Shown piece after piece: positions 6,127-30,724 of a DNA stretch of 34,488 nt. Origin of the DNA: a virus; IMG/VR virus record IMGVR_UViG_3300005525_000062, positions 1 to 34,488 of that record. One strand, written 5' to 3'. The translations under genes were made by a program, and so were the position numbers. The notes under the pieces are model-generated. The model was not told the origin of the DNA. It saw only the letters and a list, made by a program, of their open reading frames with translations, and ran no database searches. Numbering within the stretch: the stretch's first letter is position 1; every line of letters starts with the position of its first letter.

Positions 6127-6356
6127 TGGTGTGTCAGACAAAAGGACAGTGGTCTCATGCTGAAAACAACGTCATGCAGAAGCTTGATGTGCTGACCCGA
6201 ATTAATCAGTACGAAGAGCCGCTGTTCCTTAACAAGCAGATTGGTGCTACACGGTGGATTCCTAAGGGATACAACGGAGAGCATGCCAATAACATTGTAG
6301 AGAGTTTCAACAATAATCTCGTTCAACTAATTCTGAATCCTGAATTCTATGAATAA
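5880..6356 (+). CDS. GIY-YIG endonuclease, homing-type, 158 aa
   Basis: The GIY-YIG domain is clear. GFIYLIHS (residues 21-28) is followed by QFYVGKKS (33-40), then DWKEYTSSSEEVNRRIEKFG (54-73), a pattern common in phage-encoded homing-type nucleases. A probable metal-binding Glu is in SHAENNVM (E95) and the C-terminal Asn in LFLNKQIG (N118). Family members cleave DNA with one divalent metal. The gene overlaps the exonuclease by about 247 bases in the -1 frame, as expected for a mobile insertion at a gene end. It might instead stand in for T7 endonuclease I, which I do not see here. No strong ribosome site precedes ATG 5880; the frame is open only from 5853. Confidence 0.8.
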   Translation: MRSYGHWKWNGERFHPEDNHGFIYLIHSIITDQFYVGKKSFHRFKKSRRIGPSDWKEYTSSSEEVNRRIEKFGKEAFDFAILMVCQTKGQWSHAENNVMQKLDVLTRINQYEEPLFLNKQIGATRWIPKGYNGEHANNIVESFNNNLVQLILNPEFYE

Positions 6357-10716: not shown

Positions 10717-10732
10717 AGCCGGTGCCTAAAGC
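10717..10732 (+). promoter_or_regulatory. Repeated intergenic element, copy 2
   Basis: AGCCGGTGCCTAAAGC lies directly after the RNA polymerase stop codon and about 40 bases before the ribonucleotide reductase start. It differs from copy 1 (1823) at two positions and from copy 3 (13893) at three. A GTG inside it opens the reductase frame but has no ribosome site. Candidate promoter for the reductase-ligase block or RNA processing signal. Confidence 0.45.
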
Positions 10733-10769
10733 CTATCCCGTAATCTGCAACACAAGGAAGAAAAATAGC

Positions 10770-12644
10770 ATGAATAGTTACCAAGAATTTATCGCCAAGA
10801 GTCGTTACAGCCGTTACCTCCCTAATGAGTTTCGGCGAGAGCATTGGCCAGAAACTGTCGATCGTTGGATCGAATTCTTTAAGAAAGAAAATCCTGAAAT
10901 CATTTCCACTAGTCAGCTTTGGGATGAGCTCTCGGAAGCAATGAAAGCGCTTGCTGTCCTCGGGTCGATGCGGACGGTGATGACTGCCGGAGAAGCTCTG
11001 GACCGGACCCATGTCGCAGCCTACAACTGCAGCTATCTTCCCATCGATGACTGGCGTTGTTTCGACGAAGCAATGTATATCCTGCTGTGCGGTACCGGTG
11101 TTGGCTTCTCTGTTGAAAGTAAATACACAAATAAACTTGCTGCAATTCCCGCAACAATTAAAGATCTTCCCGAAATTGTTATCAAAGTTGAAGATAGCAA
11201 AGAAGGATGGTGTCATGCCTATAGAGAACTTATCGCAGGTCTTTTCACTGGAATGTGCTTCTCTTGGGACGTGTCAGCCGTACGTCCAGCAGGTGCTCCA
11301 CTCAAAACCTTTGGAGGGCGCGCTTCTGGACCCGATCCCCTCGTTCGACTCTTCAAGTACACCGTCGACAAATTCAAAGGAGCAGCAGGTCGTAAACTCA
11401 CTCCGCTCGAAGCACATGACATCATGTGTAAGATCGGTGAAGTCGTTGTCGTTGGCGGCGTCCGCAGATCGGCAATGATCAGCCTTGGTGATCTGCACGA
11501 TTATGAGCATGCTAACGCTAAAACGGGTCAGTGGTGGACGAACCATTCGGAACGAGCTCTTGCTAATAATTCTGCTGTGTATAATCACCGCCCGTCTATC
11601 GGAGAGTTCATGCAAGAATGGCTGAATATCTATAACAGCCACAGTGGTGAACGCGGTATCTTCAATCGAGAAGCTTCTCAAAAGCAAGCATCCAAATGGA
11701 GCCGGCGAGATCCTAGTGCAGAGTATGGCACAAACCCGTGCTCCGAGATCATTCTTAAACCGTATCAGTTCTGCAATCTTTCTACTATCGTTGTTCGTCC
11801 TGACGACAACATCTTTGATCTTGAAGAAAAGATTCGGCTGGCAACTATTATTGGTACCATGCAATCGCGGCTGACTAAGTTTCCGTACCTTCGAGATGTC
11901 TGGCGTCACACAACCGAAGAAGAGCGTCTGCTTGGTGTGTCTATGACTGGTGTGTTCAGCAATACGCTGTTCACTGGTGATCGTGAAACCCGAAAACGTA
12001 CTCTGCGTCATCTGCGCGAAGTAGCGCGCAAGACGAATAAAATTTGGGCTGAGCGTCTGGGTATTCCGGAAAGCACGGCCATCACCTGCATTAAACCCGA
12101 AGGCACTGTCTCGCAGTTGACACTTACCGAGAGCGGCATTCATCCTGCCCATAATGACTTCTACATCCGTCGTGTTCGCCAGGATATGAAAGATCCTCTG
12201 ACTCAGTTCCTCATTGCAGAAGGTATCCCGCACGAGCCTGACGTTAATGCGCCGCAATCGACTATGATCTTTTCGTTCCCGATGAAGATGAGTGGCATTA
12301 CTCGCCATGATATCTCGGCCATTGAGCATCTGGAAATCTGGCTTGACTTCCAGCGCGAGTACTGCGAGCATAAACCCTCGATCACTGTCTACATCAAAGA
12401 AGACGAGTGGCCTGAAGTTGGTGCATGGGTTTGGAAACACTTCGATGAATGCACTGGCATTGCGTTCCTTCCGCATGACGGTGGTACGTACGTGCAAGCG
12501 CCCTACGAGGATATCACTGAAGAGCAGTACAATGAGCTCGCCAGCAAGATGCCTAACATTTCTTGGGATCGCTTCATTGAAATCCAAGACAATGTTGAAG
12601 GGGCGCAAATGCTGGCCTGTACGGCTGGCGGATGCTCAATCTAA
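10770..12644 (+). CDS. Adenosylcobalamin-dependent (class II) ribonucleotide reductase, 624 aa
   Basis: It reduces ribonucleotides to deoxyribonucleotides without oxygen or a second subunit, using vitamin B12 cofactor. From ATG 10770 (AAGGAAG upstream) the key residues are NPCSE with C324 and E326 (thiyl radical Cys and base), and C87 with C335 as the active-site dithiol; the 11-residue C324-C335 spacing equals that of the Lactobacillus leichmannii enzyme. The C-terminal CTAGGC pair (C617, C622) is the shuttle dithiol that re-reduces the active site. The short single chain with no NrdB-like partner points to the monomeric NrdJ type. The host or its medium must supply cobalamin. An in-frame GTG at 10722 is a less likely start. 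Confidence 0.9.
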   Translation: MNSYQEFIAKSRYSRYLPNEFRREHWPETVDRWIEFFKKENPEIISTSQLWDELSEAMKALAVLGSMRTVMTAGEALDRTHVAAYNCSYLPIDDWRCFDEAMYILLCGTGVGFSVESKYTNKLAAIPATIKDLPEIVIKVEDSKEGWCHAYRELIAGLFTGMCFSWDVSAVRPAGAPLKTFGGRASGPDPLVRLFKYTVDKFKGAAGRKLTPLEAHDIMCKIGEVVVVGGVRRSAMISLGDLHDYEHANAKTGQWWTNHSERALANNSAVYNHRPSIGEFMQEWLNIYNSHSGERGIFNREASQKQASKWSRRDPSAEYGTNPCSEIILKPYQFCNLSTIVVRPDDNIFDLEEKIRLATIIGTMQSRLTKFPYLRDVWRHTTEEERLLGVSMTGVFSNTLFTGDRETRKRTLRHLREVARKTNKIWAERLGIPESTAITCIKPEGTVSQLTLTESGIHPAHNDFYIRRVRQDMKDPLTQFLIAEGIPHEPDVNAPQSTMIFSFPMKMSGITRHDISAIEHLEIWLDFQREYCEHKPSITVYIKEDEWPEVGAWVWKHFDECTGIAFLPHDGGTYVQAPYEDITEEQYNELASKMPNISWDRFIEIQDNVEGAQMLACTAGGCSI

Positions 12645-12860: not shown

Positions 12861-13889
12861 ATGACCGAACGTAAACTTGCTACTATCCGTACTGTTTCCG
12901 AATTGAAACCAATTGAAGGCGCTGACCGTATTGAACTGGCCGTTGTTGACGGCTGGCAGGTGATCGTCCAGAAGGGCGAATACAATCCAGGTGATCGCGC
13001 TGTATACGTCGAAATTGATTCGTGGGTACCGCATGCTATCGCTCCGTTCCTTACTAAAGGGAAAACACCGAAGGAGTATAAAGGTATCCCAGGGAACCGG
13101 CTTAAGACTGTCAGGATGAAGGGTGTTCTAAGCCAGGGTTTGCTGCTGCCGATAACTACCCTAATCGCACCTGCTGAAGAGGGCGTAGACGTGTCTTCTG
13201 AACTTGGAGTCTTTAAATGGGAAAAGGAAATTCCAACTGCTCTTGCCGGAATCTGCAAAGGTAGTTTCCCTTCTTTCCTTGTTAAGACCGACCAAGAAAG
13301 GATCCAGAACTGCTGGAAATACTTCGATGAGGGAGATAAGCGGGATAGTTGGGTAATCACAGAAAAGCTTGACGGTAGCTCTATGACTGTCTATCTAAAA
13401 GATGGTGAGTTCGGCGTTTGCTCTAGGAATATTGATTTGAAAGAAGATGAAACAAACTCTTTCTGGAAGACGGCCCGTAAGCTCGATCTTGAGAATAAGC
13501 TGAGGAAATTTGTTGCGGAAGTCGGTGAAGATATCGCCATCCAAGGCGAACTCATTGGCCCTGGTATCCAAGGGAATCCTTACAATCTGACTGAGCACAT
13601 GTTCTATGTCTTCGCTGTGTACAACATCACAAACCAAATGTACGAGCCTGTCGGTACCGCTATCTGGTTTGCTGAAAAAAGTCTCCAAATCCCGTTCGCC
13701 CCTATTATTGCTACGATTGACTCCCTGCCGGAGCATCTAAGCACCCTGCTGCGGACGGCGGAAGGTAATAGCCTGCTCTGCAATGCTACTGAACGTGAAG
13801 GCTTTGTTTTTCACCGACAGAACCTCCGTTCAAATCATTACAACTCGTTCAAAGTAATCTCCAACAGTTGGCTACTTGCAAACGAGTAG
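12861..13889 (+). CDS. RNA ligase of the Deinococcus DraRnl (DRB0094) type, 342 aa
   Basis: These ATP-dependent ligases seal 3'-OH/5'-phosphate breaks in RNA. The N-terminal OB-like domain (about 1-105) has the family pattern LATIRTVSELKPIEGADRIE and GDRAVYVEIDSWVP. The nucleotidyltransferase domain has motif I EKLDGSS with adenylated K169, SRNID near 188-192, QGELIGPGIQGN (228-239), motif III-like YVFAVYN (249-255), motif IV EGFVFH (313-318) and motif V SFKVIS with K331, so all catalytic motifs are present. AAAGG precedes the ATG. The tRNA genes lie just downstream, which fits a role in repairing tRNAs cut by host defence; that link is inference. Confidence 0.88.
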   Translation: MTERKLATIRTVSELKPIEGADRIELAVVDGWQVIVQKGEYNPGDRAVYVEIDSWVPHAIAPFLTKGKTPKEYKGIPGNRLKTVRMKGVLSQGLLLPITTLIAPAEEGVDVSSELGVFKWEKEIPTALAGICKGSFPSFLVKTDQERIQNCWKYFDEGDKRDSWVITEKLDGSSMTVYLKDGEFGVCSRNIDLKEDETNSFWKTARKLDLENKLRKFVAEVGEDIAIQGELIGPGIQGNPYNLTEHMFYVFAVYNITNQMYEPVGTAIWFAEKSLQIPFAPIIATIDSLPEHLSTLLRTAEGNSLLCNATEREGFVFHRQNLRSNHYNSFKVISNSWLLANE

Positions 13890-14001: not shown

Positions 14002-14077
14002 GCTACAATAGCTCAGTTGGTAGAGCACCTTCCTTGTAAGTAGGTGGTCGTGGGTTCGATTCCTACTTGTAGCACCA
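14002..14077 (+). tRNA. tRNA-Thr (anticodon TGT)
   Basis: The full cloverleaf can be folded. The acceptor GCTACAA pairs with TTGTAGC, the D arm is GCTCAGTTGGTAGAGC, the anticodon loop CTTGTAA reads TGT (codon ACA), the T arm is GTGGG-TTCGATT-CCTAC, and the 3' ACCA is encoded. The anticodon stem has one T-T mismatch. It is 76 bases including CCA. Confidence 0.92.
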
Positions 14078-15055: not shown

Positions 15056-18000
15056 TTACATCGGAGTATCTCCGTTAGGATCCCAACCGCGCCAGTTCAC
15101 ACCAGCTTTGAACGGGACAGGATTTGATGCGGGCAAATTATCAGACGGGAAAGGATTATCCCAACTGTCTTCCACATCGTCTTTTGTCGTCTTCGAAGGG
15201 ACCAATTTATCATCTTCTTTAACTGGGGCCGCCTTAGCTGCAGGAATTACTTTGCCAATCTTCTCCGGAGTTGCAGGACGCTTACCGCCACCCGCCGACA
15301 TCTGAAGGATACCACCCTTACGAGTAGCTTGATAAAGAACACGTTCTGCATTTGTAACTCGTTGCTCAAAATTAGCCAACCATCCGTCAAGCTTACTGTC
15401 AACACCTTTAACACGAAGCAGACGCTCAGCCAATTCCATCAATTTAGGAAAGTTCTCCGGCTTAACGGCCAGATACTTCCGTTCACTGAACGGGAGACTA
15501 TCAGGCTCAACCCAACCAAGCTTTTCAGCTTCATCGAGGATAGCGTTGATATTGGCTTTGAACTTCTCCCATTGCATTTCAGGAGCGACTTCTTGCTTAG
15601 TTGATTCATCGATGGCATTCTTGAACATAGAGCTCGTAGTTTTGCCCTTGAATGTAATCTCTGTGGACGGTCGGCTCGTCTTCCCCTTACCGCTACGCGC
15701 ATTCGCCATCCGCATGAAGACTCGATCTTTGTAAGTGTCATCAGCGACTTTGAAATAGAACTCATCAAGTACAGCACCGAGGACAGGGAACTCACCCTCC
15801 GCACCAATACCGACAGGCTCTCCGCGCTCTTTCACAGTGTTGATTGCACGATTACGGGCATCATCCATAGACTTCTTGATCTTGGTACCCATCTTCTTCA
15901 TCTCTTTAATTGCAGCCGGAATCGCCACGTTATTGTAGAGATTACGATATACCATCGCCTGACCCGGAGTAGAGACGATCGAATCGTGGACCCAAGTAAC
16001 AGGCCTCGGAAGCGAGCGCTCACGGTTAGCAGCAATAGTTGTCATCTTGACAAGATCTCCGTCAAGCGACTGGATGGTCAGAACAACTGCCTGACGAGCC
16101 ATCGACATACCAAGAGGATTGTGGAAGTCGTCGTGCTTCTGTTCCTTCCTATTGAAGAAACGCTGAATACCAACCCCTTGCTTCATCTGCCCTTTAGCGT
16201 GCTGAGGCATGAATTGAAGCTCGTACGAAGGCACTTGCGTCTCTTGCCCAGTCTCCGGGTTAATAAACGTATGAAGGTGGACATTCGGAATCTTCTGAAT
16301 GACTTCTTTCCCATTCACTTCTTTTGTGAACGAACTCGTGTTAGGCGTATTCGTCCCGACAATAGACACACCAGTAGGTGTAATAACGTACGTATCGCCT
16401 GTGACACCCTCGATAAGCATTGGCGAGTTATACAAGGCAAATGCTCGACCAATACGCTTCATTGTAGAAGCTGATTCCGTACCGACAAGTTGTCGAAGAG
16501 TCATCTCAACACCTGACGCCAGATCAACAGAAGCTTCTGACGGATTCTTGTAAACATTTGACAGGTGTTTTACATACAAAGACGAGTAAAGAGTGTCTCC
16601 ATCAAGCAGAGAAGCCATAACGTCACCGAACATACTGGCATCTTTACCATAGCTGTTCTGCATCAGCGGCGCTTTACCGAAGTCTTTTGCCACTCCATTT
16701 TCTTTGTCTGGATGCAGTGTAGCCGCTTCCTTCCAGAAAGATTTCCAAGCTTCGGCTTTCTCAGGGGAGTCAGAAGCTTCTTCAAGATACTTGTTTAGGT
16801 TGTCGGTGACAGTATCCATGAAGTAACGGCGCATGTCATTGATATCTGGGTTGGCCATCGATAGACGAGTAAGAGCATCGCTCGAGCTGGACGGGCCTTC
16901 CAGACCAAAGAACAAAGCCTGAAGGAAAATACCGTTCTGATTACCGTCATCGAACACATGATGAGTCAGCGGCATAGAACTACGCTTAATTTCAGGCGTA
17001 TCAAAAGCAGCCTTCATCTTAGCGAAGTCATCCAGCAAATTCAAAGTACCAAGAGCTTCACCTTTTTCTGTGCTGACCCACAGCCCCATCATCTCCATAT
17101 CAGGTTGTTGCTGCGGATTCTCTAGGAAATTATTGTACTTGACGCCCAAGTCAGCCAAACGGGAACCGATGGCAGGGGTGTACAACTGGATCGCATCGTT
17201 GATCGGCAGCTTGACCACATTCTTAATAGAGCTATCCAAGGCAGTGTAATAGAACAGAACTGCACTGTGCATAGCACCAAGAGCCGACAATTCGAGCGGA
17301 CTCATCTTTGTCAGTTTTTCGTTAACACCTTGTCCGGTACCGCCAAAAGTCAGGCGAGAACGCTCTTTGAGTCGAGCAATCTGGTCAGGATCAAACAGAG
17401 AATCAACGCGGATAGGATCTTGCGCGGCCATGCCGAGAACATCGCGGATGACGTTCTTCGAGCCCATATAGTCAAGGTCGTAGCTGTTGACAAAGAAGCG
17501 CTGATTAGCCAGCGAGTGCATGAACTCACCGTATCGAAGACCAGTCTTATCCTGAAGAGACTTCATAGCAAATTCAACCTTTGCTTTCTCTTCCATCATG
17601 ACTTGCTTCGCTTTATAGCTCTTGATCGCTTCAAAGGCTTTTACGTGGCGGGGATCATCTTTGTTATAACCCTCGGGAACGTCTACCTCAGCTTTCGCTT
17701 TCATGTAGGCACCCCTATGCAGGCCATTACGTTGGGCCAACGGATGATTGCTGTACAAGAACTCGCCAGTCTCAGGATCGCTTTCGACAAATTCCTTACT
17801 AAAAACAAGATCGAGTTCCATCTGTTTTCGCTTGAGATCTTTTGCGCGGAACACATACGCAATACCACCAAGGATATTCTTAGTGACGTCAGCGGCGCGA
17901 GTAACAACCTGCGGAGTAGACACTGATTTAGACGTCATCCGAGGCTTACGAGCAGAGAAGTTGGCACCAGTGGCTGTCGGAGCAATAGACGAGGCACTCC

Positions 18001-19102
18001 GTTTAGTCTCCCCAGCGATAGCATCCGAAACGAGTTCGAGATTCATAGCGGTACGCTTCATTTCAGGCGAAGCAACAAGGATCTTATTACCGCTGTCAGG
18101 ATCAACAGCAACTTGAAGATCACCCCGCTGCCATGCATCAGTAATCAAAGCCTTGGCCATGTACTGCGCGTCAGCCCCGTCGAGCGGAAGACCCGACGAG
18201 CGAATACCATTCTTTATGAAGTGAGCCACACTGTTGATGGCATCCGACATGAACTCAGAACCATCAGGAGCTTCATTAGTTACGTTCGATTCGCCAGTTG
18301 TTTTATCTTTCTTTTTGACGCCCATCTGAGCAACTGTCTGATTAAGAGCAAGCCCACCAACCGTAGCCACAATATTAGCAGTCTCTCGATCGACACGACC
18401 GAGCTTTTCAAGGATGCTAACCCCTGGCGCAACTACGCGACCCATATCATCAACAGCAGAAGCTGCTTTAGTTTCGTTTGTCATCAGTGCAGTATAAGCA
18501 TTGTTGACGACAATGCCGAGAGGCGAGCCGACTTGATCGACAAAGCGTTTAAATCCCGAAGCAGAGGCAGCCCATTTTTCTTTAGTGCGGGCATCACCGA
18601 GGAATCCAACTTTAGAAGCACGATCTTCAAGCAACTGAGAAACAGCCGATTGGGCGCCGTAAGGATTCTGAGCGACCTCGTAGATGGCTTTGCTGGTATC
18701 ATTAAATCCGTAGCGCTCTAAAGCAAGCTGCTGATTGTAGGCATCCATCGGAATTTCTTCCGTCAGCAACTGCTCTGGATTGTTCGGATCGACAACGGGA
18801 TTACCTTGCTCGTCTAGCACCGGGCGAACTCGTGTTTGAGGCGCAAAAGGAACATTCGAGTAAGCAGCAACATCTTCCGGAGTTTCCATCAGCGGAAGAT
18901 CAGCGGTCATGAATTCCTGGACACGCGCAGGAACTTCACGCATCGGAGGAACTTCAGGAACTGCCTGGATAGCTTCTTGAATAGCTTGTTGGGGGTTAGG
19001 CACCCCCAGAGCCGTATTAGCGTTACTCAGCAGATCAGTAATCGAAGCTCGAGCTTGAGTCTGTTCTACTGTAGGCCGCACTGTGCCTGTATACTTAGCC
19101 AT
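15056..19102 (-). CDS. Giant virion protein with T7-family RNA polymerase core; candidate virion RNA polymerase, 1348 aa
   Basis: Last gene of the ejection-protein block; AAAGGAC precedes the ATG. Residues about 530-1070 match the T7 RNA polymerase family in order. YDLDYMG (541-547) sits where T7 has DWRGRVY. Motif A is HVFDDGNQNGIF, with D719 matching D537. Motif B is KDFGKAPLMQNSYG, with K810 and Y818 at exact T7 spacing to K631 and Y639. TIQSLDGDLVKMTTI (1009-1023) matches T7 FVQSQDGSHLRKTVV. Motif C is VTWVHDSIVSTP, with D1040 matching D812. Both metal-binding Asp, the Lys and the Tyr are present. About 430 N-terminal and 280 C-terminal residues are extra, without known domains. N4 carries such an enzyme in its virion. 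Location in the particle is inferred. Confidence 0.85.
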   Translation of the reverse strand: MAKYTGTVRPTVEQTQARASITDLLSNANTALGVPNPQQAIQEAIQAVPEVPPMREVPARVQEFMTADLPLMETPEDVAAYSNVPFAPQTRVRPVLDEQGNPVVDPNNPEQLLTEEIPMDAYNQQLALERYGFNDTSKAIYEVAQNPYGAQSAVSQLLEDRASKVGFLGDARTKEKWAASASGFKRFVDQVGSPLGIVVNNAYTALMTNETKAASAVDDMGRVVAPGVSILEKLGRVDRETANIVATVGGLALNQTVAQMGVKKKDKTTGESNVTNEAPDGSEFMSDAINSVAHFIKNGIRSSGLPLDGADAQYMAKALITDAWQRGDLQVAVDPDSGNKILVASPEMKRTAMNLELVSDAIAGETKRSASSIAPTATGANFSARKPRMTSKSVSTPQVVTRAADVTKNILGGIAYVFRAKDLKRKQMELDLVFSKEFVESDPETGEFLYSNHPLAQRNGLHRGAYMKAKAEVDVPEGYNKDDPRHVKAFEAIKSYKAKQVMMEEKAKVEFAMKSLQDKTGLRYGEFMHSLANQRFFVNSYDLDYMGSKNVIRDVLGMAAQDPIRVDSLFDPDQIARLKERSRLTFGGTGQGVNEKLTKMSPLELSALGAMHSAVLFYYTALDSSIKNVVKLPINDAIQLYTPAIGSRLADLGVKYNNFLENPQQQPDMEMMGLWVSTEKGEALGTLNLLDDFAKMKAAFDTPEIKRSSMPLTHHVFDDGNQNGIFLQALFFGLEGPSSSSDALTRLSMANPDINDMRRYFMDTVTDNLNKYLEEASDSPEKAEAWKSFWKEAATLHPDKENGVAKDFGKAPLMQNSYGKDASMFGDVMASLLDGDTLYSSLYVKHLSNVYKNPSEASVDLASGVEMTLRQLVGTESASTMKRIGRAFALYNSPMLIEGVTGDTYVITPTGVSIVGTNTPNTSSFTKEVNGKEVIQKIPNVHLHTFINPETGQETQVPSYELQFMPQHAKGQMKQGVGIQRFFNRKEQKHDDFHNPLGMSMARQAVVLTIQSLDGDLVKMTTIAANRERSLPRPVTWVHDSIVSTPGQAMVYRNLYNNVAIPAAIKEMKKMGTKIKKSMDDARNRAINTVKERGEPVGIGAEGEFPVLGAVLDEFYFKVADDTYKDRVFMRMANARSGKGKTSRPSTEITFKGKTTSSMFKNAIDESTKQEVAPEMQWEKFKANINAILDEAEKLGWVEPDSLPFSERKYLAVKPENFPKLMELAERLLRVKGVDSKLDGWLANFEQRVTNAERVLYQATRKGGILQMSAGGGKRPATPEKIGKVIPAAKAAPVKEDDKLVPSKTTKDDVEDSWDNPFPSDNLPASNPVPFKAGVNWRGWDPNGDTPM

Positions 19103-19107
19103 ATTGC

Positions 19108-22100
19108 TTAGTCCTTTCCAGCAATTTGTTTTGAAACTGTCTCGGCTACAATTGGGAACGAGCCCGCCACAGGGAGGGATCGAACCACTTGTTTAGTACC
19201 TAGTTCGGTTTCACCGATTCCTAGATTGTACATGCCTCTAACAGTCCTATCTGCCCAATTGATAGGTGGGGCGTTACCTTTGAGTGTACTCCATGCCCAA
19301 GCAACAGGTTGCTCAGTCGGATCAATCACTCGTTGTTTGTAAATTGGCGAAATACCTTGCAGCACCTGATCGAATCGACCAAGAAGACCAGAGCCTTCGA
19401 TAGCTCTCTGCATCTCTTTTGCTTTTCCTTTGACGTACGGATTCTCGTCGTCCCCATACGACAGGATGTCCTTCAGGTTATTGGCGATATAAGCCATTGC
19501 AAGAGCACTCGCCATAACAGCAAACGCTTGGTAACGCATTCCTGCATTACCATCCTTGACATAATCAAAGTACAATCGCGGCAGGATATTGGCCGTCAAG
19601 CCAGCAATGAATCGGGTCATCGCTGTAAAGATCCGCAGATGAGGGTCATAATAGTACTTCGGCAGATTACCTGATTGCGGATTGACAATCTTCGAATCGA
19701 CCATATTGCGTAGAGTAGTCAGCATGGTCTCGCGAAGCCATTGCGCATCAGGTTTAATGCCACTTTCATCTGTCCGCAGGAACTCAGTTTCCCTGGTGCC
19801 GATAGCGTCAATTACTGCGTTGACACGCTCGTTGTCGGGAATAAGCATTTGATCCATGATCTCAAGAGTTCTGGTTACATCCATACCGTACTTCTCAAGC
19901 TCATATAGAGCATAGTACTGATCTTTGCTTAGATTCTCGCCTGTCTCGAATCGAAGAGCACGTTCTGCAGGCGGAACAGCTTGGAGGACACCAATACGTT
20001 GGCGGATAATGTCAGCAGCAACTGAGAGAGCAGCGATACGGTTCGCATCAGTAACAGCCCGAAGACCGATCAACGACGCAAAGAAGTGCATTGTCTTCTT
20101 CATGTTCGCAGAAGCAATCTCAAACTTCGCTTGAGTATTGTACCCTGTATCATTGAAACCTAGTTTATCAAAAAGATTACGACCAATCAATTTACGATGC
20201 ATCTTTGTAATTTCTCTTTTGACGTCATCGATTTCTTTTTGACTAGGATTCTGCTTACTCTGAACATCATCAAGCTTCTTCTGAAGACGCACTACTTCTT
20301 GACGAACTTTCACGCTGGGATGTTCTCTAGCATAGTTCAACCCGAGACGGGCTACGGCAATAGATGTTCCCTTATTAAAGTCGCTCTTCCATTCTTTAAA
20401 GAAGTTAGTGATAGAGTCGCTCAATTGTGTTGTTACTTTTTCTCCGGGGGTACCTAATACCGCAATAGCAGATTCAGGGAGCGAGCTAACAGCCGCTTTA
20501 CCTAGCGAGGCCAGCATTGTTGCTGTAACACCCCAGCCAAGAACTTTTTCAATGAACGGATACGCTTCGAGTGAGTTGTACTGACCAGTAACAATCTTGT
20601 AGAAGTCTTGAGTGTTCTGGATCACATCTAACTTTTCTTGCTCAGATGCGAACTCACCATTCTTATCAGCCCAGTAAATCAATCGAGCCAAATTAGATCC
20701 ATCACGACCCATGTACAGTTCGTGGGAAGCATGCGAAGCAATCCGCTGCTTAAAGTTCTCGAACGAGTTAAACACGTTAGGTATAAACAGGGAAGCTAGC
20801 TTAGGATCACTGAACACACCATACGACTTCATGAACTCTTTAGCAGGACCGGCTAGAGCAGGATCGCCGCCAATCAGGTTGTTAACTGCCTGAGCTGCCT
20901 GCTGTTTGTCAGCACCGGCCTGAATCATCACAGAAGTAATTGCCGAGGCATTCCTAGCAATGATATACGGATCAACCATAGAGTCTTCAAAGACCGAAGA
21001 CAGACGTTCATACTGTTCTGTATTGATCCCTAGATCTTTCAGCATCCCAATGGCAGAACCCGACACACGACTAACCTCATCCATCCACGCTTGTAGACGC
21101 ACATTGGTAGGATTAGTTGAAGGAAGCCTCTCACCCTTACTCCACACATTTGTCCATGCGGATTGAACCATCTGTTCGACTCGAGTCGGAGAAGTCTTAA
21201 ACTCTGCAGCCAGCTCGTCGGCTCCTGTTGTACTCCATTCGCCAATAATTCTCTGACGGAAACCTTCCATATGATCGCCGGTCAGAGTCCCTTGTTTCAT
21301 AATCGATTTCAGAATAGGGAGGAAGGTCTTAAAGGTACCATCTGTTTTTCGCAGATCACGGACAGTCGTTTCAGCAAGACCTCGAACAAGACGAAGAGGA
21401 TCTTTCACAACAGACAAGAAGCCATTCCATTTTCCTGGACGACCCTGCATTTCCAGCAGATTCGGGATAGGATCGTTCGCGGGAAGCGCAATGGCTTTCT
21501 GAACACCGTCTAGAGCAGATACTGCGCCAAACTCACCCCGAGCAGCCTTTTGCCGCTGATCTGCTCGATAAGCCATCGAGTCAGCAATGTTTTTCTCATA
21601 CGCTCTTTTTGCATCTGCGGCTGAGTGCCAGGATGCCATGTCGAGAGCGACACCACCAACATCGAACGCACCACCCATAATCCCACCACCAATAGCAGCA
21701 TCAACAATAGCTTCATAGAAGCCTTTTTCATATCGTTGATCAATATCCCATTGGCCTGAAGATGCCATCATCTCAAGGAAGGTCTGAGCAGCTTCAGTAC
21801 CAGACTCAGAGACAGTGCCAAGACCGACCGACTTAAGAGCAGCCATCTTAGCTTCTTTGCTGGCAAAATGACGTTCGGCAAACTGAGCGCCAAAGCCGGC
21901 CAAATCAAGAATCTCTTTCTTAGTAGCGTTCTCAAGAACTTCCATTGCTGCTTCTCGATTAGCGTATTTGCCCGAGGCCAGCATAGCTGTCAGAACTTCT
22001 TCGCGCCCAACTTTACTAAATAGATTCGGGCCAGCAATCATCCCTTGAAGACCAATCCGATCGAGGACACCAGCACCAATACCGGCAGAAATGGCCAGTA

Positions 22101-23313
22101 CAGGATTTTTCTTGTCTTCATCTTGGTTCGAGTAGAACTGACCGACATACAGGGCACTTCCCGGAACAGCACTGAGAGCCATACCGCCCCAGCCACCAAT
22201 AGGCGCTGTAGCGATTGTAGCTCCAACTAGAACAGCCATGTGCGGGAGAGTCTGAGCGAGAAGATTACCTACATAGGTAGCTGAGTTCTCGATTGTACTC
22301 CAAGTGTCTTTGCCGGGAACATCACGAATCGAATTGATGATGTCGGGTGTAAGACCCTCTTCCATCTTCAAGCGTGCAACTTCGTTTTTGCTTTTTTCGG
22401 ACAGCCAAGCCCACTTAGCAGAGTCACCAACAATCTCGCCGATACCGTAGAAACCTTGCTTAAGGTTGATCCACCCCTTCTCTAAGGCTGTGCCTATTTG
22501 TTCGTGGGCATTGTTCATAATATCACGATCAGCCTTGCGGAATTCAACCGATCCGACGAAGTCAGGCGTAACTGCAGCAGTCCAAAGCTTGTCCCGTTCG
22601 GCTTCGAGCTTAGCTTGGAGCTTCACGCGCGTGTCTTCCCGCAGACTTGGATCTTCAAGTATCTTGGTCAGCCGGTTGATCTCGTCAACGGCTTCCTTGG
22701 CGGCAGCAACACCCACTATTTCTTTTGCTGCTTTGTACTGGATTTCATTTTGAGCGGCAAGTTTAGGGATGTACAACGGAGAGCCACCAGATTCTTCAAT
22801 CCGTTGCTTGTGCTCATCCATTGCAATTTTCATGACCGGGTCAGCAGAGGCCAACTCCGGAGCACCACGCATAAGAGCGCGTGCAATGCGGTGCTGACGG
22901 ATAGTATCTACGTCAGTATACATTGTGGGATCAGTGATGCCGAGGGTCTCAAGTGTTTTACCGAGACTATCACCACCAGCATTTTGCTGATCCATTAGTT
23001 CGCGGGAGTATCCGCCTGTTTTACCAGTGGAAACTAGCCTGTTAAACCCACCAGCCTTTTCTACCTTATCAACAACTTGCTGCGTACGATCCCCTGCCAC
23101 TTGTCCAGGAATAAAAATGCCCCCTTGAAACTTTGCGGTTTCGGGAGCATTAAATCCTGCAAGACGAACAGACTTACCATCGACTTTAACAGTGTCAGGG
23201 TCAATCTTAGTGACAGGAGAACTTAATGCCTTACCGTCTACAGATTCAATTGTCGATGGTGCCGCTTCGAAACGACTTGGATCCATCGAATTGATTGCTT
23301 CTTCGATATTCAT
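19108..23313 (-). CDS. Giant ejection/internal virion protein with N-terminal nuclease-like domain, 1401 aa
   Basis: GGAG precedes the ATG. Residues about 36-150 resemble staphylococcal nuclease: KIDPDTVKV (D40 as Asp21), VRLAGFNAPET (R50 and E58 as Arg35 and Glu43), and GGYSREL (R104 as Arg87). Asp40 of the enzyme is Asn here and the DGDT Gly is Pro. The rest is long, helical and Ala/Gly-rich. A hydrophobic glycine-rich stretch at about 349-395 and another near the C-terminus (YQAFAVMASALAMAYIANNL) could insert into membrane. These are features of large phage ejection proteins that build the channel across the cell envelope, as T7 gp15/gp16 do. The nuclease assignment is by motif only. Confidence 0.75.
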   Translation of the reverse strand: MNIEEAINSMDPSRFEAAPSTIESVDGKALSSPVTKIDPDTVKVDGKSVRLAGFNAPETAKFQGGIFIPGQVAGDRTQQVVDKVEKAGGFNRLVSTGKTGGYSRELMDQQNAGGDSLGKTLETLGITDPTMYTDVDTIRQHRIARALMRGAPELASADPVMKIAMDEHKQRIEESGGSPLYIPKLAAQNEIQYKAAKEIVGVAAAKEAVDEINRLTKILEDPSLREDTRVKLQAKLEAERDKLWTAAVTPDFVGSVEFRKADRDIMNNAHEQIGTALEKGWINLKQGFYGIGEIVGDSAKWAWLSEKSKNEVARLKMEEGLTPDIINSIRDVPGKDTWSTIENSATYVGNLLAQTLPHMAVLVGATIATAPIGGWGGMALSAVPGSALYVGQFYSNQDEDKKNPVLAISAGIGAGVLDRIGLQGMIAGPNLFSKVGREEVLTAMLASGKYANREAAMEVLENATKKEILDLAGFGAQFAERHFASKEAKMAALKSVGLGTVSESGTEAAQTFLEMMASSGQWDIDQRYEKGFYEAIVDAAIGGGIMGGAFDVGGVALDMASWHSAADAKRAYEKNIADSMAYRADQRQKAARGEFGAVSALDGVQKAIALPANDPIPNLLEMQGRPGKWNGFLSVVKDPLRLVRGLAETTVRDLRKTDGTFKTFLPILKSIMKQGTLTGDHMEGFRQRIIGEWSTTGADELAAEFKTSPTRVEQMVQSAWTNVWSKGERLPSTNPTNVRLQAWMDEVSRVSGSAIGMLKDLGINTEQYERLSSVFEDSMVDPYIIARNASAITSVMIQAGADKQQAAQAVNNLIGGDPALAGPAKEFMKSYGVFSDPKLASLFIPNVFNSFENFKQRIASHASHELYMGRDGSNLARLIYWADKNGEFASEQEKLDVIQNTQDFYKIVTGQYNSLEAYPFIEKVLGWGVTATMLASLGKAAVSSLPESAIAVLGTPGEKVTTQLSDSITNFFKEWKSDFNKGTSIAVARLGLNYAREHPSVKVRQEVVRLQKKLDDVQSKQNPSQKEIDDVKREITKMHRKLIGRNLFDKLGFNDTGYNTQAKFEIASANMKKTMHFFASLIGLRAVTDANRIAALSVAADIIRQRIGVLQAVPPAERALRFETGENLSKDQYYALYELEKYGMDVTRTLEIMDQMLIPDNERVNAVIDAIGTRETEFLRTDESGIKPDAQWLRETMLTTLRNMVDSKIVNPQSGNLPKYYYDPHLRIFTAMTRFIAGLTANILPRLYFDYVKDGNAGMRYQAFAVMASALAMAYIANNLKDILSYGDDENPYVKGKAKEMQRAIEGSGLLGRFDQVLQGISPIYKQRVIDPTEQPVAWAWSTLKGNAPPINWADRTVRGMYNLGIGETELGTKQVVRSLPVAGSFPIVAETVSKQIAGKD

Positions 23314-23348: not shown

Positions 23349-25391
23349 TTATTCAACCTTCCCCGTAATCCACAACAGAAACGGAGAGTATCCAGGGCGC
23401 GCCTCAGCCATTACCTTAGCACGTTCCCTCAGTTTTTCATTCTTCGGTGACAACCATTCTTGTTCTAGAACAGGAAGAACAGTTGCATATGTAGTAGGCT
23501 TGCTTGTTGATCTGGCAATCTGAGCTACATGCTTATCAAGACTCGTAGTGAAGTCGGATATAGCTTCCATCGAAGGCCGTTTATCGCCTACTTTGTAGAG
23601 CTGTCCACCAGTAGCTTTCCGTGTTGAAATGACAGCATTACCGTAGACGTACTTACGGAAAGCATCAGGGCTAGTTGCGTCAAGAATAGCACCCTTCCCC
23701 TTAGTCATCTTCATTTCTTCAAGAATATTTTGCATACCTGTTTCAACGACAGCCGCAAAATCTTCGTCCGACATATTAGGGAAATCTTGCTTTAGTTGGA
23801 GAGCTTCTTCAGATAATCCCGAGGCAATCGATCTGGCTTCGGAAGTATTAAGCCCCTCGCCCTTACGTCCTTGAGTGGCCCTAATAAGCAGACCTTCAAG
23901 CTTGTTCGTAATAGCGGTCGTTCTTTGGGTACGTTCAGCACGAGCCTCAGCACCGGTGATTAGTACCTTTTTAGGGTCTACTGCTTTGTACGAAGACGTT
24001 CCGGGATCTCGGACATAAAACTCCTTGCCTTGCCAATAGCCTTGAAGAGCAACGCTTGGATTTTCTCGATCGTACATCACCTCAATCTTTGGTCCTTTTT
24101 CATCAGCAGAACGATTCGACTGATTGATAAGGATGGCTTCTTTAAATAGCTTCTCTCGCTCTTGCGGAGTTGGAGCTACAAGAGCTTTGTTGTACACTTC
24201 CATTGCCTTGTCACGTGCCTCAACGGATGCCTGCCCAAAGGTAGTAAGGAAGGTAGACTCTAGTTGTTGATTCCGATCGTGCTGATCTTTAGAGTACTGA
24301 GCCGCTTGAGTACGGGCAAACTGTCTAGCCTGCGCTTCTTGAGTACGGGCAAACTGTTTATCTTGCGCCTCTGCTTGCTTTTCTCCTTGGTAGCGCTCTT
24401 CGGCGCTTTTAATAGCAGCAAGACCTGCGTATCGGATAGAACCACCAATAGAACCGCCAGTTAGCAAACCACCAGCAGCCAGAATACCGAACTTTAGAAG
24501 TTCTCGCTCATTGAAGATACCTTTATCACCAAAGATTCTGGAGAATTGCGCACCAAGCCAAGCTTGAGGATCCGCTCCTTGCGGCGGCTTTTGATTGGTA
24601 AGCGCGGCAATCTGCTCTTGAGTTCGAGTAGATTGAAGGGTTTGATCGAGAGCACTAATACGCTCTTCAGGTTTCTTTTCTTCTTCCTGAGTGATATATT
24701 CCTGAGTGACATCTACTGCCTTAACCGGGTCTCTCGGTGTGGGCTCAATTGTGGGGAGTGGTGGGAGAGATCTCGGAAGAGATCGCGGCGTTTCAATACT
24801 ACGGCTAACAGCGTAAGGGGCACGAGGATCTTCGCCGGTAATATCTTGGACTCCGAACTCAAGGTCAAGTAGCCCGGGGCGTGGGACGATAGTGTCGCCG
24901 GGGTCGCCGACTTCTAGTGACCTCCGAGGAACCTCAGGGATGACTGCACGCCTCTCGCTCTTCACCGTGTACGGATTAGGATCTGATAAGAACTCGCCAA
25001 CAGTTTTATTCTGCAGGTTAGGATTAATAGCAATAGCTTCCGGAGAAAGCACAGCAGCCAAAGGAAGGTTAGGGTCTGAGTTACGAATTCTAGCGTAACC
25101 AGTGTCACCAACGACCCAAGCACGATTAATGTCATTCTCGTCAGGATCAATACCGTGTTGTGTAATAAGACGATTACGGAGGATCGATTTGTAACCTTCG
25201 CGATACTGCTCTTGAACTTTTGGATTGCTGAAATCCATATTGGCCAGAGCGGGAAACTCTCTCGCCACATCTTGCCGAGCGGCATTAGTCAACTGGTAAA
25301 GACCCAAGGCAGAGCTCCTCGGGTTCCTTGCAGCCGGATTGCCGCCCGACTCATATCTCATAACTTCTTGATCAGTTAGTGCTTCACGCAT
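23349..25391 (-). CDS. Internal virion protein with lytic transglycosylase domain, 680 aa
   Basis: Residues 1-130 are a lytic-transglycosylase-like (SLT) domain: RYESGGNPAARNPRSSALGL with catalytic E14 and the GLYQLT substrate segment (30-35), as in the N-terminus of T7 gp16. It would open peptidoglycan during DNA entry. A Pro/Arg/Thr-rich linker (about 150-250) follows, then a glycine-rich hydrophobic patch (FGILAAGGLLTGGSIGGSI, about 301-319), then a Gln/Ala/Arg coiled coil built on 11-residue repeats, then a helical C-terminus. AGGT precedes the ATG. It overlaps the previous gene by 16 bases. In T7 the transglycosylase is fused to the largest protein; here it has its own gene. Confidence 0.82.
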   Translation of the reverse strand: MREALTDQEVMRYESGGNPAARNPRSSALGLYQLTNAARQDVAREFPALANMDFSNPKVQEQYREGYKSILRNRLITQHGIDPDENDINRAWVVGDTGYARIRNSDPNLPLAAVLSPEAIAINPNLQNKTVGEFLSDPNPYTVKSERRAVIPEVPRRSLEVGDPGDTIVPRPGLLDLEFGVQDITGEDPRAPYAVSRSIETPRSLPRSLPPLPTIEPTPRDPVKAVDVTQEYITQEEEKKPEERISALDQTLQSTRTQEQIAALTNQKPPQGADPQAWLGAQFSRIFGDKGIFNERELLKFGILAAGGLLTGGSIGGSIRYAGLAAIKSAEERYQGEKQAEAQDKQFARTQEAQARQFARTQAAQYSKDQHDRNQQLESTFLTTFGQASVEARDKAMEVYNKALVAPTPQEREKLFKEAILINQSNRSADEKGPKIEVMYDRENPSVALQGYWQGKEFYVRDPGTSSYKAVDPKKVLITGAEARAERTQRTTAITNKLEGLLIRATQGRKGEGLNTSEARSIASGLSEEALQLKQDFPNMSDEDFAAVVETGMQNILEEMKMTKGKGAILDATSPDAFRKYVYGNAVISTRKATGGQLYKVGDKRPSMEAISDFTTSLDKHVAQIARSTSKPTTYATVLPVLEQEWLSPKNEKLRERAKVMAEARPGYSPFLLWITGKVE
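24305..24357 (-). repeat. 33-base tandem repeat inside the transglycosylase gene
   Basis: Two identical 20-base stretches (CTTGAGTACGGGCAAACTGT on the plus strand, at 24305-24324 and 24338-24357) lie exactly 33 bases apart. They encode QFARTQEAQAR followed by QFARTQAAQYS. The 11-residue period is a hendecad, the repeat of right-handed coiled coils, so the duplication lengthened a helix without breaking its register. Confidence 0.75.
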
Positions 25392-26103: not shown

Positions 26104-27039
26104 TTAGTAATCACCGTTAATGAGAGCAAAGTCACCACCACCACCACCATTACCACCACTACCGACAGGCGGAGTCGGGTTAGGTGCAGGATTAAAACCC
26201 CCCGGGGGACTTGTGCCGCCTTTACCGCCTGTTGGTTGCCCAGAAGGATTACGCCCGATTTTAGCAAAGCCGGTTGCCGCAGGATTGTATGTAGGATTAG
26301 CGCGCTGCTCACCGTAGTAATTAAAAGACCCTGTGTTACCCCAAGGGTTTGACGGAGCACTCGTGATCGGATTACCATTTTTACCTGAAGGTGGCGGAAT
26401 AGAGATTCCTGGCCGACTTAATTGAGCGGAGAGTCCATTATGAGCGATTCCGTGATGACCTGCTTGACCAAAGTCAATACCTACGGCTGTAGTTCCTTTT
26501 TCGAATCCAAACATAGATCCGACAGCGTTACCCGCCATACCTCCGAGTTTAGATCCTGCAAATGTGCCGAGAGGACCGAACATAGAACCAATCATAGCAC
26601 CTGCAGCAGCGCCGGCAGCTTCGTCATACTCACCTTTCATAACACCACCAAGTGCGGCACCAAGAGGCGCAAACGAGCTCACAGTACTACCCGCCGCCCC
26701 TGCCGTAGCCGAAAGACCTTCTGCACCGAACGCACCAGTCTGTTCCGCCAGCATAGCAGCTTGCGAACCTGCACCCGAGGAAGCCCCTTCGCCTAGAATA
26801 CCAGCGTATGCAGCCGGCTTACTGGCCCAACCTGTAGCACCATCTATGGCGGAATCGACCGCTTCCATAGCAACCGCAGCCCCGGCTTGATTTAGAATCT
26901 GCTCTGCAGGGTCAGGAGTAGCAACAGCATGAATGGGACCGGGAACCTGCTCTTGCTGAAGTTGCGGAAGAGTGTTCATAATCTCTTTCTTCCGCTTATC
27001 GTCTACACCCCATCCCCATTTTTGATTGTAGTCAAACAT
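26104..27039 (-). CDS. Glycine/alanine-rich internal virion protein, 311 aa
   Basis: GGAGGGGG precedes the ATG. Residues about 50-180 are Ala/Gly/Ser-rich with a glycine-zipper-like stretch (AAGAAAGAMIGSMFGPLGTF, about 141-160) able to insert into membranes. The GFEKGTTAV tag sits at about 178-186. The C-terminal 110 residues are Pro/Asn/Gly-rich and disordered, ending in GGNGGGGGDFALINGDY. In T7 the corresponding slot is the gp14/gp15 region, whose small proteins form the outer-membrane part of the ejection channel. I assign a similar role by composition and position only. Confidence 0.6.
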   Translation of the reverse strand: MFDYNQKWGWGVDDKRKKEIMNTLPQLQQEQVPGPIHAVATPDPAEQILNQAGAAVAMEAVDSAIDGATGWASKPAAYAGILGEGASSGAGSQAAMLAEQTGAFGAEGLSATAGAAGSTVSSFAPLGAALGGVMKGEYDEAAGAAAGAMIGSMFGPLGTFAGSKLGGMAGNAVGSMFGFEKGTTAVGIDFGQAGHHGIAHNGLSAQLSRPGISIPPPSGKNGNPITSAPSNPWGNTGSFNYYGEQRANPTYNPAATGFAKIGRNPSGQPTGGKGGTSPPGGFNPAPNPTPPVGSGGNGGGGGDFALINGDY

Positions 27040-27041
27040 GA

Positions 27042-27743
27042 TTACTTACCCCCTCCGCCACCGGTGGCGACGGTTTGCTGACGTGCAGGATTACCATAGA
27101 TGGTCGAAGCGTACCGCTGAAGAGCTTGCCAGTTGGCATCGCCTGTTTGCTGCTCAATATCGCGAGCTTGCGAACCAAGAGACGAGTAAGCCTTCGCAGC
27201 ACCTTCTGCCACACCACCAGCAGCGCCGACATTACCACCAAGAAGTTGCTCTGCAGAAATTCGATTTTGGAAGTTCTGTTGGGCAGCGTCTTGATCAATC
27301 TTGGCGAACACGGCTGCTGTAGCAGCATCTTGAGCGCCTTGTTGTACCGCTTGACGCGCCGATCCAAGCGTACCACGTTGTCCGTAGTCTTTACCAAGTT
27401 GGGCCGTTTTGATACCTGCCTCAGTAATTGCTGCTTCTTTAAGAGCCGTCGTATCGTAGCCACCTGAGGTAGCCATACTAGTCAATCGGTCGCCTTGACC
27501 CGAAAGAACACTGAGATTTCGGTTAGCGGTATCACCAATAGCTTGTGCGCCGCTGCCAAAAGCAGTTTGCAGGAGAGGATTTGAACCGGCTACTTGGCTA
27601 AGATTACCACTTCCATACTGGCTTTCTGCTTCATTACCTACACGTTGAAGGTAAGGAACAGCCCACTCCGGGATAGTCGAGGTAGTAGAAGTGTTGCCAC
27701 CACCACCGCCACCTTTGTACCTAGTTGTCTTTTGTTTCTTCAT
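27042..27743 (-). CDS. Small internal virion protein, probably gp14-like ejection protein, 233 aa
   Basis: TAAGGAATTAACTA precedes ATG at 27743. The protein starts with a basic tail and a run of six glycines (KGGGGGGNTSTTSTI) and ends in ATGGGGGK. The middle, about residues 25-215, is a Gln/Ala/Gly-rich helix (IPEWAVPYLQRVGNEAESQY, LGKDYGQRGTLGSARQAV). GT.GSARQ-containing helices of this kind are seen in podovirus DNA-injection proteins. The gene follows the gp13-like gene, as gp14 follows gp13 in T7. Glycine runs at both ends probably act as flexible tethers. Confidence 0.6.
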   Translation of the reverse strand: MKKQKTTRYKGGGGGGNTSTTSTIPEWAVPYLQRVGNEAESQYGSGNLSQVAGSNPLLQTAFGSGAQAIGDTANRNLSVLSGQGDRLTSMATSGGYDTTALKEAAITEAGIKTAQLGKDYGQRGTLGSARQAVQQGAQDAATAAVFAKIDQDAAQQNFQNRISAEQLLGGNVGAAGGVAEGAAKAYSSLGSQARDIEQQTGDANWQALQRYASTIYGNPARQQTVATGGGGGK

Positions 27744-28216: not shown

Positions 28217-30724
28217 TTATCGTGCCCCAATGATTGTTACAATCAGGCCTCTCGCTGTCCCATTTCCAACTTGATCAACGTCGATTGTAATCTCGTCGTC
28301 GTCAGCAATAGTAACACCAGACAGTACAGCGGGTGTACCTGATGTAAGACTTGTCTTTTCTGTATTGTCGATTATGAGCTTTGTAGTACTGAAAATCGAG
28401 AAACCGTTTCTGTTCACATCAACAGTGACGAACGCGCCCGAAGTCTGCGCTGTGGACAGCGACGCACGAACCTCTGAGATGGTAAATCCATGCGGAGCGC
28501 GGAAGTAGGCCTTTGTCGTCCCTGCCGTAATAATTGAAGTCAAATCCGATGCAGCAATTTGAAAAAAGACTGGAGCAAAGGCAGGGCGCGAGTACGGGTT
28601 ATTTCGATTCGAATAGTGACGAGCGATACTGGTACCCGGTAGGTCATACGGATAGATAGCAGGTTCAGCAATCCTTCCTGTAAAGTGTGAGGTATTAACT
28701 CCGCCACCAGTTTCGCTACTGGCAGATCCAACAAACCACGTTTGACTTCCTGTGCCGACTGTAGCCGCAGCATTCACTGACGTATCCAAAACACCGTTGA
28801 CATAAATCATGACAGGGCCGCCAGTAGGACGAACAACAACAGCCACATGATACCATACCTCTCGGTCGAAAACGAAGTTCGAAGTGATTGTCTGGTCAGT
28901 GGAAAGGTTGTTACCACTGTCAATATCGACAACAATTTTTCGACTTGCATCGTTCCAAGAAATTACAAAAGGAAACTCTGTAGCATCTGTAGCAATATAC
29001 GAGGACTTCGAAATGATCTGGCCGTACTTCCCGGTTGACGCGCTTGGCGTACGCATGAAAAACTCTGCTGTAAAGCGAGTCAATTGGCGTGTATCATTCA
29101 AGGAAATACCGGGAGCACCTGCTGCGTTAATAGAATTCTCGATGTATCCACCGCCAAAAGCAGGACTACCCACCACTGAACGAGTCAAACCGGTGCCAGC
29201 ACGCGGCACGCCATCGATACGACTCCACCCAAGATTGGATTCGTTACCTGCGCCTTGAGTCAATCGAGTGTAGAAAAGAGGACCGTCTTCGATGACCGAT
29301 TCGGCATAGGACGTAGCGCCGCCAATGTTACCACTAACAGCAATAACTTCACGCGGGACAAAACCAGTAGCCGATAAATATTGTCCGCTGGACACCCTGC
29401 GAAGACGCAACCTATTTGTCCTAACAGGGAACGGGAATGCAAGCCGATTATTGATCAGTGCTCCCACGTCGTTTACAAAGTTCGAAGGTATTTGACCAAT
29501 TATTTGCCAAGCAGAACCATCCCACCATTCAATATTACGCGAATTAAGATAGGCAGATGTGCCACCCCAACCTGAAATACTACCCCCGCCAAGGAGAACA
29601 GAGTCAATCCACTTTTCGCCAATCCATTCAAATTGTATCCACTCGTCAGAACCATTATTGGTACCAGTGCCTGTAGCGTTGTTGCCATCAATCATGTTAG
29701 CGACGGTGGCCGCAGTAACTTCAGGGTACACCGACGATTGGCTAACGGCAGACAGGACGACATCCTCGAAAGTGATACTTCCGGGTGGACCGCCGCCCCC
29801 ACCACCACCTCCACCACCGCTGGCCAATTCAGCCAGAGCACCTTCAACATCAGTTGCCGTAAAGTTGTTAGCGGTATCGACAATCGAAATGGCCGACGCA
29901 TCGTGTGCATCAGTTGTATCCGACAAATGACCTGACAAAGCAGTATTAAGCGTGTTAAGATCGGAACCAACTTCCTGGAGAGCCACCTCAACATTAGTAC
30001 CCGTGAAGTAGTTGCCTGCATCAGCGATACTGACATCGTCCGCATCACCGCCACCAGCCGGCTGCCATGTCCCATCATCTCGAAGGAATCTACCACTTTG
30101 AGTTGTTGGTCCGGGAACAAGACCTTTTTTATTCGCGGCGAACACAGGAAGAAGCTCTGTAACCTGCGCCGGAGTTAGATCCTGCGGCGATCCTGTCCCT
30201 GACTCTACTCGACCTTTGATCGTACCTGTTGGCATATCAGCCAACTTGTCGTTATTAATCGAGTTATCAGAAATTATTGTCTCTAGATCAATAGCTGACG
30301 TTGGCGCTGCTGACCACGAAGCGTCAGGAGGGTTTTCTGCTATTTGCAGACTAATCTGTCTACCACCGACAAGACGATAGTACAGCTCCTTATCGGCACC
30401 GAAGCCTACTGTCGGATTAGAAGGATCTACAGGGTACCATTTGTAGTCGTACCATAGAAGTGATTCTGACGAAGAATCAGAGTTGTATAAGCCATAGAAG
30501 AATCGATTCGTAGGCGAATCACCAAAATCGGCGCCACTTCTACTGTTGGCATACTTGACATGCAAAAACCTCTTTTGGTAAAATGGCACGCTCGAAACGG
30601 GATTAGGGGCTGTGCCACTGTCGTTAGAGACGCTCCCCGTTTTTTGTTCAGCAACATGCTGGGACAAACGGTTAAGATACTCATCGAGTTCTTGATTACC
30701 AGTAAACGGAGGAATGAAAATCAT
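28217..30724 (-). CDS. Tail fibre / receptor-binding protein with discoidin-like and LamG-like domains, 835 aa
   Basis: TAGGAGAT precedes the ATG. Residues 1-145 probably attach to the tail. Two related stalk repeats follow, VSIADAGNYFTGTNVEVALQ (231-250) and ISIVDTANNFTATDVEGALA (279-298), both of a type common in phage fibres. A run of ten glycines lies at 303-312. Residues about 320-465 resemble a discoidin/F5-8C sugar-binding domain (VANMIDGNNATGTGTNNGSD, WIQFEW). Residues about 475-705 resemble a concanavalin/LamG fold (FTAEFFMRTP, WYHVAVVV, VNGVLDTS). Residues 715-835 are a beta domain. It should bind host surface polysaccharide. No hydrolase motif is evident. Confidence 0.82.
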   Translation of the reverse strand: MIFIPPFTGNQELDEYLNRLSQHVAEQKTGSVSNDSGTAPNPVSSVPFYQKRFLHVKYANSRSGADFGDSPTNRFFYGLYNSDSSSESLLWYDYKWYPVDPSNPTVGFGADKELYYRLVGGRQISLQIAENPPDASWSAAPTSAIDLETIISDNSINNDKLADMPTGTIKGRVESGTGSPQDLTPAQVTELLPVFAANKKGLVPGPTTQSGRFLRDDGTWQPAGGGDADDVSIADAGNYFTGTNVEVALQEVGSDLNTLNTALSGHLSDTTDAHDASAISIVDTANNFTATDVEGALAELASGGGGGGGGGGPPGSITFEDVVLSAVSQSSVYPEVTAATVANMIDGNNATGTGTNNGSDEWIQFEWIGEKWIDSVLLGGGSISGWGGTSAYLNSRNIEWWDGSAWQIIGQIPSNFVNDVGALINNRLAFPFPVRTNRLRLRRVSSGQYLSATGFVPREVIAVSGNIGGATSYAESVIEDGPLFYTRLTQGAGNESNLGWSRIDGVPRAGTGLTRSVVGSPAFGGGYIENSINAAGAPGISLNDTRQLTRFTAEFFMRTPSASTGKYGQIISKSSYIATDATEFPFVISWNDASRKIVVDIDSGNNLSTDQTITSNFVFDREVWYHVAVVVRPTGGPVMIYVNGVLDTSVNAAATVGTGSQTWFVGSASSETGGGVNTSHFTGRIAEPAIYPYDLPGTSIARHYSNRNNPYSRPAFAPVFFQIAASDLTSIITAGTTKAYFRAPHGFTISEVRASLSTAQTSGAFVTVDVNRNGFSIFSTTKLIIDNTEKTSLTSGTPAVLSGVTIADDDEITIDVDQVGNGTARGLIVTIIGAR

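Follow-up and report, generated by a model that had tools for sequence, protein, structure and literature searches.

We identified a divergent staphylococcal nuclease (SNase) domain at the N-terminus of a 1401-aa putative ejection protein of an uncultured, short-tailed phage, encoded in the IMG/VR virus record IMGVR_UViG_3300005525_000062 (hereafter the window, that is, the whole 34,488-nt stretch of DNA that was analysed). We propose, with moderate confidence, that this is a virion ejection protein in which a body of the LUZ24 gp50/N4 type enters or crosses the inner membrane and the SNase head is probably a working phosphodiesterase. Even distant relatives retain the key catalytic residues, so that infection by this phage may bring with it an enzyme that cuts DNA or RNA. 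The ATG of the open reading frame is preceded, four bases upstream, by an AGGAGA ribosome-binding motif (Table 1).

The original prediction, made from the letters of the window, had placed an SNase-like domain at the head of an ejection protein. The stretch that it named, 22864-23208, corresponds exactly to residues 36-150 on the minus strand. The first part was borne out by a family-profile search of the PDB, hhalign comparisons and a fold search with an AlphaFold2 (AF2) model, and the second agrees with the resemblance of the body to the N-terminal region of the N4 virion RNA polymerase and, via a relative, to LUZ24 gp50.

Table 1. Features of the SNase-headed gene, its neighbours and other genes of the window.
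Feature	Coordinates	Strand	Evidence or remark
SegE-type GIY-YIG endonuclease, overlapping the end of the 5'-3' exonuclease gene	5880-6356	+	
Ribonucleotide reductase	10722-12644	+	phrog_367, E 5e-177
RNA ligase with PHA02142 OB-fold domain	12861-13889	+	Pfam, E 1e-26
1348-aa conserved neighbour, last gene of the structural operon	15056-19102	-	Equivalent place in CRP-7 (gp33) and in several viral contigs
Putative ejection protein with SNase-like head, 1401 aa	19108-23313	-	ORF list; AGGAGA motif; orthologues in CRP-7 and viral contigs
N4-type virion RNA polymerase N-terminal (membrane-inserting) similarity, residues 334-598	21520-22314	-	phrog_2206 matches of the window protein and of L007
SNase-like domain, residues ~35-150	22864-23211	-	PDB profile search; hhalign with shuffles; AF2 topology; fold search
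R104 codon (SNase Arg87, catalytic)	23002-23004	-	Head alignment; invariant
E58 codon (SNase Glu43, general base)	23140-23142	-	Head alignment; invariant
N55 codon (SNase Asp40 position)	23149-23151	-	Head alignment; Asn or Asp
R50 codon (SNase Arg35, catalytic)	23164-23166	-	Head alignment; invariant
D40 codon (SNase Asp21, metal ligand)	23194-23196	-	Head alignment; invariant
680-aa neighbour with transglycosylase-like (SLT) head	23349-25391	-	Pfam SLT, E 4.9e-4, below curated cut-off; phrog_4067 (transglycosylase), E 6.8e-7
Glycine-zipper protein, 311 aa, conserved upstream neighbour	26104-27039	-	Database matches; gene order
233-aa protein, weakly similar to a family of DNA ejection proteins	27042-27743	-	phrog_4287, E 1.4e-3
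835-aa tail-region protein with LamG-like lectin domain	28217-30724	-	Pfam, E 8e-14

Identity of the N-terminal domain

Taken by itself, the window sequence has no significant match in Pfam, NCBIfam or the PDB, and no significant SNase match in PHROGs. When a profile built from 12 relatives was compared with all PDB sequences, the best 60 matches were SNases (E 4e-4); the addition of three members improved the score, and with the resulting 15-relative profile all of the 60 matches listed from 177,635 PDB sequences were SNases (E 2.5e-5). Single-clade profiles recovered no SNase from the PDB, the signal appearing only when the divergent clades are combined. Furthermore, hhalign comparison of the family profile with eight standalone SNases from alphaproteobacterial plasmids and phages returned 98.3-98.4%, the profile of the window clade alone gave 97.1% and that of the CRP-7 clade only 42%; among 100 column-shuffled profiles the highest value was 4.3%, and the reversed profile scored 0.2%. 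The residue-by-residue register of the alignment between head and SNase holds through strand 5 and helix 2.

Individual relatives gave sub-threshold matches of the same kind. The heads of L036 and L045, searched alone, matched the Pfam SNase family with E 0.03 and 0.08, respectively, and a search of the phage collection with the L045 head yielded three records, which come from two genomes and are all PF00565 SNases (E 0.1-0.2). The PF00565 gathering cut-off of 21 bits was reached by no family member tested (window, no match; best relative, L036, 15.2 bits), and because of these scores the head is filed as a remote SNase-superfamily domain, not under PF00565 as curated. A match of the window query to P1 DarA (E 0.32) disappeared with a longer query.

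The AF2 model of the head, predicted with moderate confidence (13 input sequences, pLDDT 71.8), has the SNase topology of an OB-fold barrel plus three helices. Its elements follow in the SNase order, namely b1 (35-38), b2 (41-44), b3 (47-51), a1 (76-88), b4 (92-99), b5 (105-110), a2 (117-123) and a3 (135-150), and the model is weakest in the loop that carries E58 (57-63). The three best Foldseek matches in the PDB were SNases (probability up to 0.93, E 0.06-0.1), and the VIA-align matches listed were all SNases or the related SND1/Tudor-SN (Z 6.9, 115 residues, 4.1 A); this Z is middling on its own and was weighed jointly with the sequence evidence. In BFVD, matches past rank 3 were too weak to use; a 983-aa viral protein (A0A516LXN0_1) gave a borderline structural match (E 0.42, probability 0.41) and is possibly another SNase-headed protein. 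We conclude that residues ~35-150 are a divergent SNase domain.

Distribution and active site of the head

The only phage isolate with a match in tblastn searches is Roseobacter phage CRP-7, in which gp34 (1368 aa, annotated as a 'hypothetical protein') occupies the same gene position; the CRP-7 paper says nothing of a nuclease in its main text (PMC6918029). Scans of viral contigs for the same N-terminus further revealed the SNase-like head in 16 contigs of several divergent clades and in one contig identical to the window, and a scan of genome contigs yielded no bacterial or prophage copy. Another candidate, L026, was dropped, its match lying within an unrelated 1016-aa protein. The aligned heads share 28% to 59% identity with that of the window. 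Trees of the head and of the body recovered the same main clades, as would be expected if the two were inherited as one unit. No standalone SNase was found elsewhere in the window record.

All of the nuclease landmarks named in the original prediction are present, namely D38-P-D40-T, R50-L-A-G-F-N55-A56-P-E58 and Y102-S-R104. Across 15 aligned heads, nine of the 92 core columns are invariant (D38, D40, T41, R50, A56, E58, R104, N111 and G114), and they include the positions of Asp21, Arg35, Glu43 and Arg87 of SNase (hypergeometric probability of all four being invariant 4.5e-5, taking the alignment as given). The signature D-D-T-R-[N/D]-A-E-R is kept in all 16 full-length or near-full proteins, and Asp19, Asp21, Arg35, Glu43 and Arg87 are unchanged even in relatives with 28% identity to the window. 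The head thus resembles staphylococcal nuclease and PF00565 in the order of strands and helices, in D19/D21, R35, E43 and R87 and, in most members, in a YGR motif, but differs in falling below Pfam detection in the window and in carrying Asn at the Asp40 position. In addition, staphylococcal nuclease is a secreted protein, whereas the head in the window is fused to a virion-type body of ~1250 aa.

At the Asp40 position, the window and 10 relatives have Asn, and five other members have Asp; two clades keep the acidic residue. In terms of activity, staphylococcal nuclease tolerates changes of Asp40 far better than changes of Arg35, Glu43 or Arg87. Four standalone SNases from viral contigs (L046-L049) share with the window protein the GFNAPE motif (Asn40-Ala41-Pro-Glu43) and Arg87, but have signal-peptide-like N-termini and no fusion, and three of them (L046, L048 and L049) score above the Pfam SNase cut-off with the same Asn40/Ala41 pair. 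Thus, Asp40 does not seem to define the SNase superfamily, and its substitution need not mark a dead enzyme. The Asn/Ala replacements that had raised the suspicion of altered metal binding are real, and Asn in this metal position may lower the activity; the doubt is weakened, not removed, by these standalone SNases and by the family members with Asp40. The set L046-L049 lends itself naturally to testing the role of this position.

Body of the protein and gene neighbourhood

Beyond the head, residues 334-598 match positions 208-471 of phrog_2206, a virion RNA polymerase family (E 1.7e-6), as does the same region of the relative L007 (E 1.4e-8). This match covers the region of N4 gp50, the virion RNA polymerase of Schitoviridae, in which membrane helices are predicted (224-278) and whose N-terminal domain inserts into nanodiscs (PMC12633501); several relatives of the window protein have hydrophobic segments at ~350-425. 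Unlike N4 gp50, the window protein contains no RNA polymerase, and an SNase head has not been reported in N4.

The body of another relative, L018, matches LUZ24 gp50 (E 7e-9 in a search of the whole phage collection) and its family, phrog_6958 (E 1e-30). LUZ24 gp50, of the genus Bruynoghevirus, is annotated as a virion protein; its body is collinear with the family profile (from profile position 274 and gp50 residue 66 onward), and its gene occupies a similar site, late in the structural operon and ahead of a convergent terminator. It differs in having no SNase head; where the SNase-headed proteins have the head and a further ~120 residues, it has ~65. The head is therefore a lineage-specific addition or loss. 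The AF2 model of the body (residues 151-1350) had a pLDDT of 42 and was unusable for a fold search.

The SNase-headed gene lies towards the end of the structural operon, with putative ejection-protein genes around it. In outline, the gene order is common to the window, to CRP-7 and to several contigs, all three clades being represented, with genes for proteins of ~230 aa, ~310 aa and 680-1193 aa (the last SLT-headed in the window) followed by the SNase-headed gene, a gene for a protein of 1115-1348 aa and then a convergent operon. The 680-aa SLT-headed protein is likely a partner ejection protein, and its counterparts in relatives are longer (816-1193 aa). Residues 537-592 of this protein are also weakly similar to PF04463 (2-thiouracil desulfurase; E 8e-4, below cut-off). 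Elsewhere in the window, the RNA ligase gene adjoins a tRNA-Thr gene (14002-14077). The ribonucleotide reductase of CRP-7 is adenosylcobalamin-dependent and encoded at a different genome position.

Possible roles of the SNase head

During infection, the 1401-aa protein would be packaged in the virion and ejected into the host, where its helical body would enter or cross the inner membrane and the head would refold once past the tail. Because the head lies ahead of the predicted membrane region, an arrangement shared with the transglycosylase head of T7 gp16, it would most likely end up on the periplasmic side, with access to Ca2+, and could cut nucleic acid there. The phage would then have two enzymatic heads, the other being the transglycosylase head of the adjacent protein. 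The parallel with T7 gp16 is one of analogy: that protein also consists of an N-terminal enzyme head of ~150 aa followed by membrane and DNA-binding parts (PMC8954989), but its head is a lytic transglycosylase, a domain that in the window is found on the 680-aa neighbour, and we found no sequence match of the window protein to T7 gp16. A more specific form of this proposal remains tentative, namely that a class of short-tailed phages has a nuclease, delivered from the virion, that acts exclusively on the periplasmic side of the ejection channel, becomes active through refolding and Ca2+ once it has been ejected, and forms a second enzymatic head next to the transglycosylase. If so, such a nuclease could, for example, remove or cleave nucleic acid where the phage enters or keep out the DNA of rival phages.

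The chief objection to activity is that an active nuclease packed beside the phage genome would endanger it. This hazard within the capsid, the Asn that replaces the metal ligand Asp40 in the window and in 10 relatives, the divergence of the head below Pfam detection and the binding of DNA by T7 gp15 and gp16-C (reviewed in PMC8954989) would all fit a head that keeps the SNase fold but serves as a non-cutting nucleic-acid clamp, holding the leading end of the genome or lining a DNA channel. We regard such a clamp as possible but doubtful, primarily because binding alone leaves the invariance of Arg35, Glu43 and Arg87 unexplained while most positions of the domain vary; moreover, Asn40 also occurs in standalone SNases, and two clades retain Asp40. 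The invariance of the catalytic Arg/Glu/Arg set likewise disfavours the suggestion, part of the original prediction, that the head is a relic.

SNases require millimolar Ca2+, which is scarce in the cytoplasm; this requirement, together with the threat to the incoming phage genome, makes it unlikely that the head is an active nuclease with the host cytoplasm as its destination, where it would degrade the DNA or RNA of the host at an early stage of the takeover. Active-site conservation fits such a cytoplasmic enzyme equally well, and ejected phage proteins can work in the cytoplasm, as exemplified by the N4 virion RNA polymerase (PMC12633501). However, the position of the head ahead of the predicted membrane region is that of the periplasmic transglycosylase head of T7 gp16 (PMC12633501, PMC8954989). 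Finally, a chance likeness, in which a small OB-like domain carries coincidental motif matches, would agree with the lack of matches for the lone window sequence and with Foldseek E values no better than ~0.06-0.1 to PDB SNases, but is highly improbable in view of the family-profile search, in which E fell from 4e-4 to 2.5e-5 as members were added, and of the hhalign results with their shuffled and reversed controls and the register through strand 5 and helix 2.

In a non-exhaustive literature search, we found no report of an SNase domain on an ejection protein. The nearest virion-borne case is the BtI1 homologue of gp147, the baseplate hub of phage 0305phi8-36, which has an SNase-related N-terminal domain where 0305phi8-36 has a transglycosylase, and the use of which was described by the authors as 'obscure' (PMC2147016). 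BtI1 is similar in that the SNase-related domain is N-terminal on a virion protein, but there the protein is the hub of a long-tailed phage-like element of Bacillus and has another body, whereas here it is a podovirus ejection protein. Relative to this precedent, the remote SNase-superfamily domain described here is on a new body and in a new phage group.

To our knowledge, transglycosylases and RNA polymerase are the only enzymatic parts known from podovirus ejection proteins. Under the preferred reading, that of an ejected protein with a probably working SNase head, a nuclease head whose active site is conserved would be a new addition to the activities that arrive with the genome. CRP-7 gp34 belongs to a cultured marine phage, so this is testable, and the finding raises the question of how a phage carries a nuclease beside its own DNA without cutting it.
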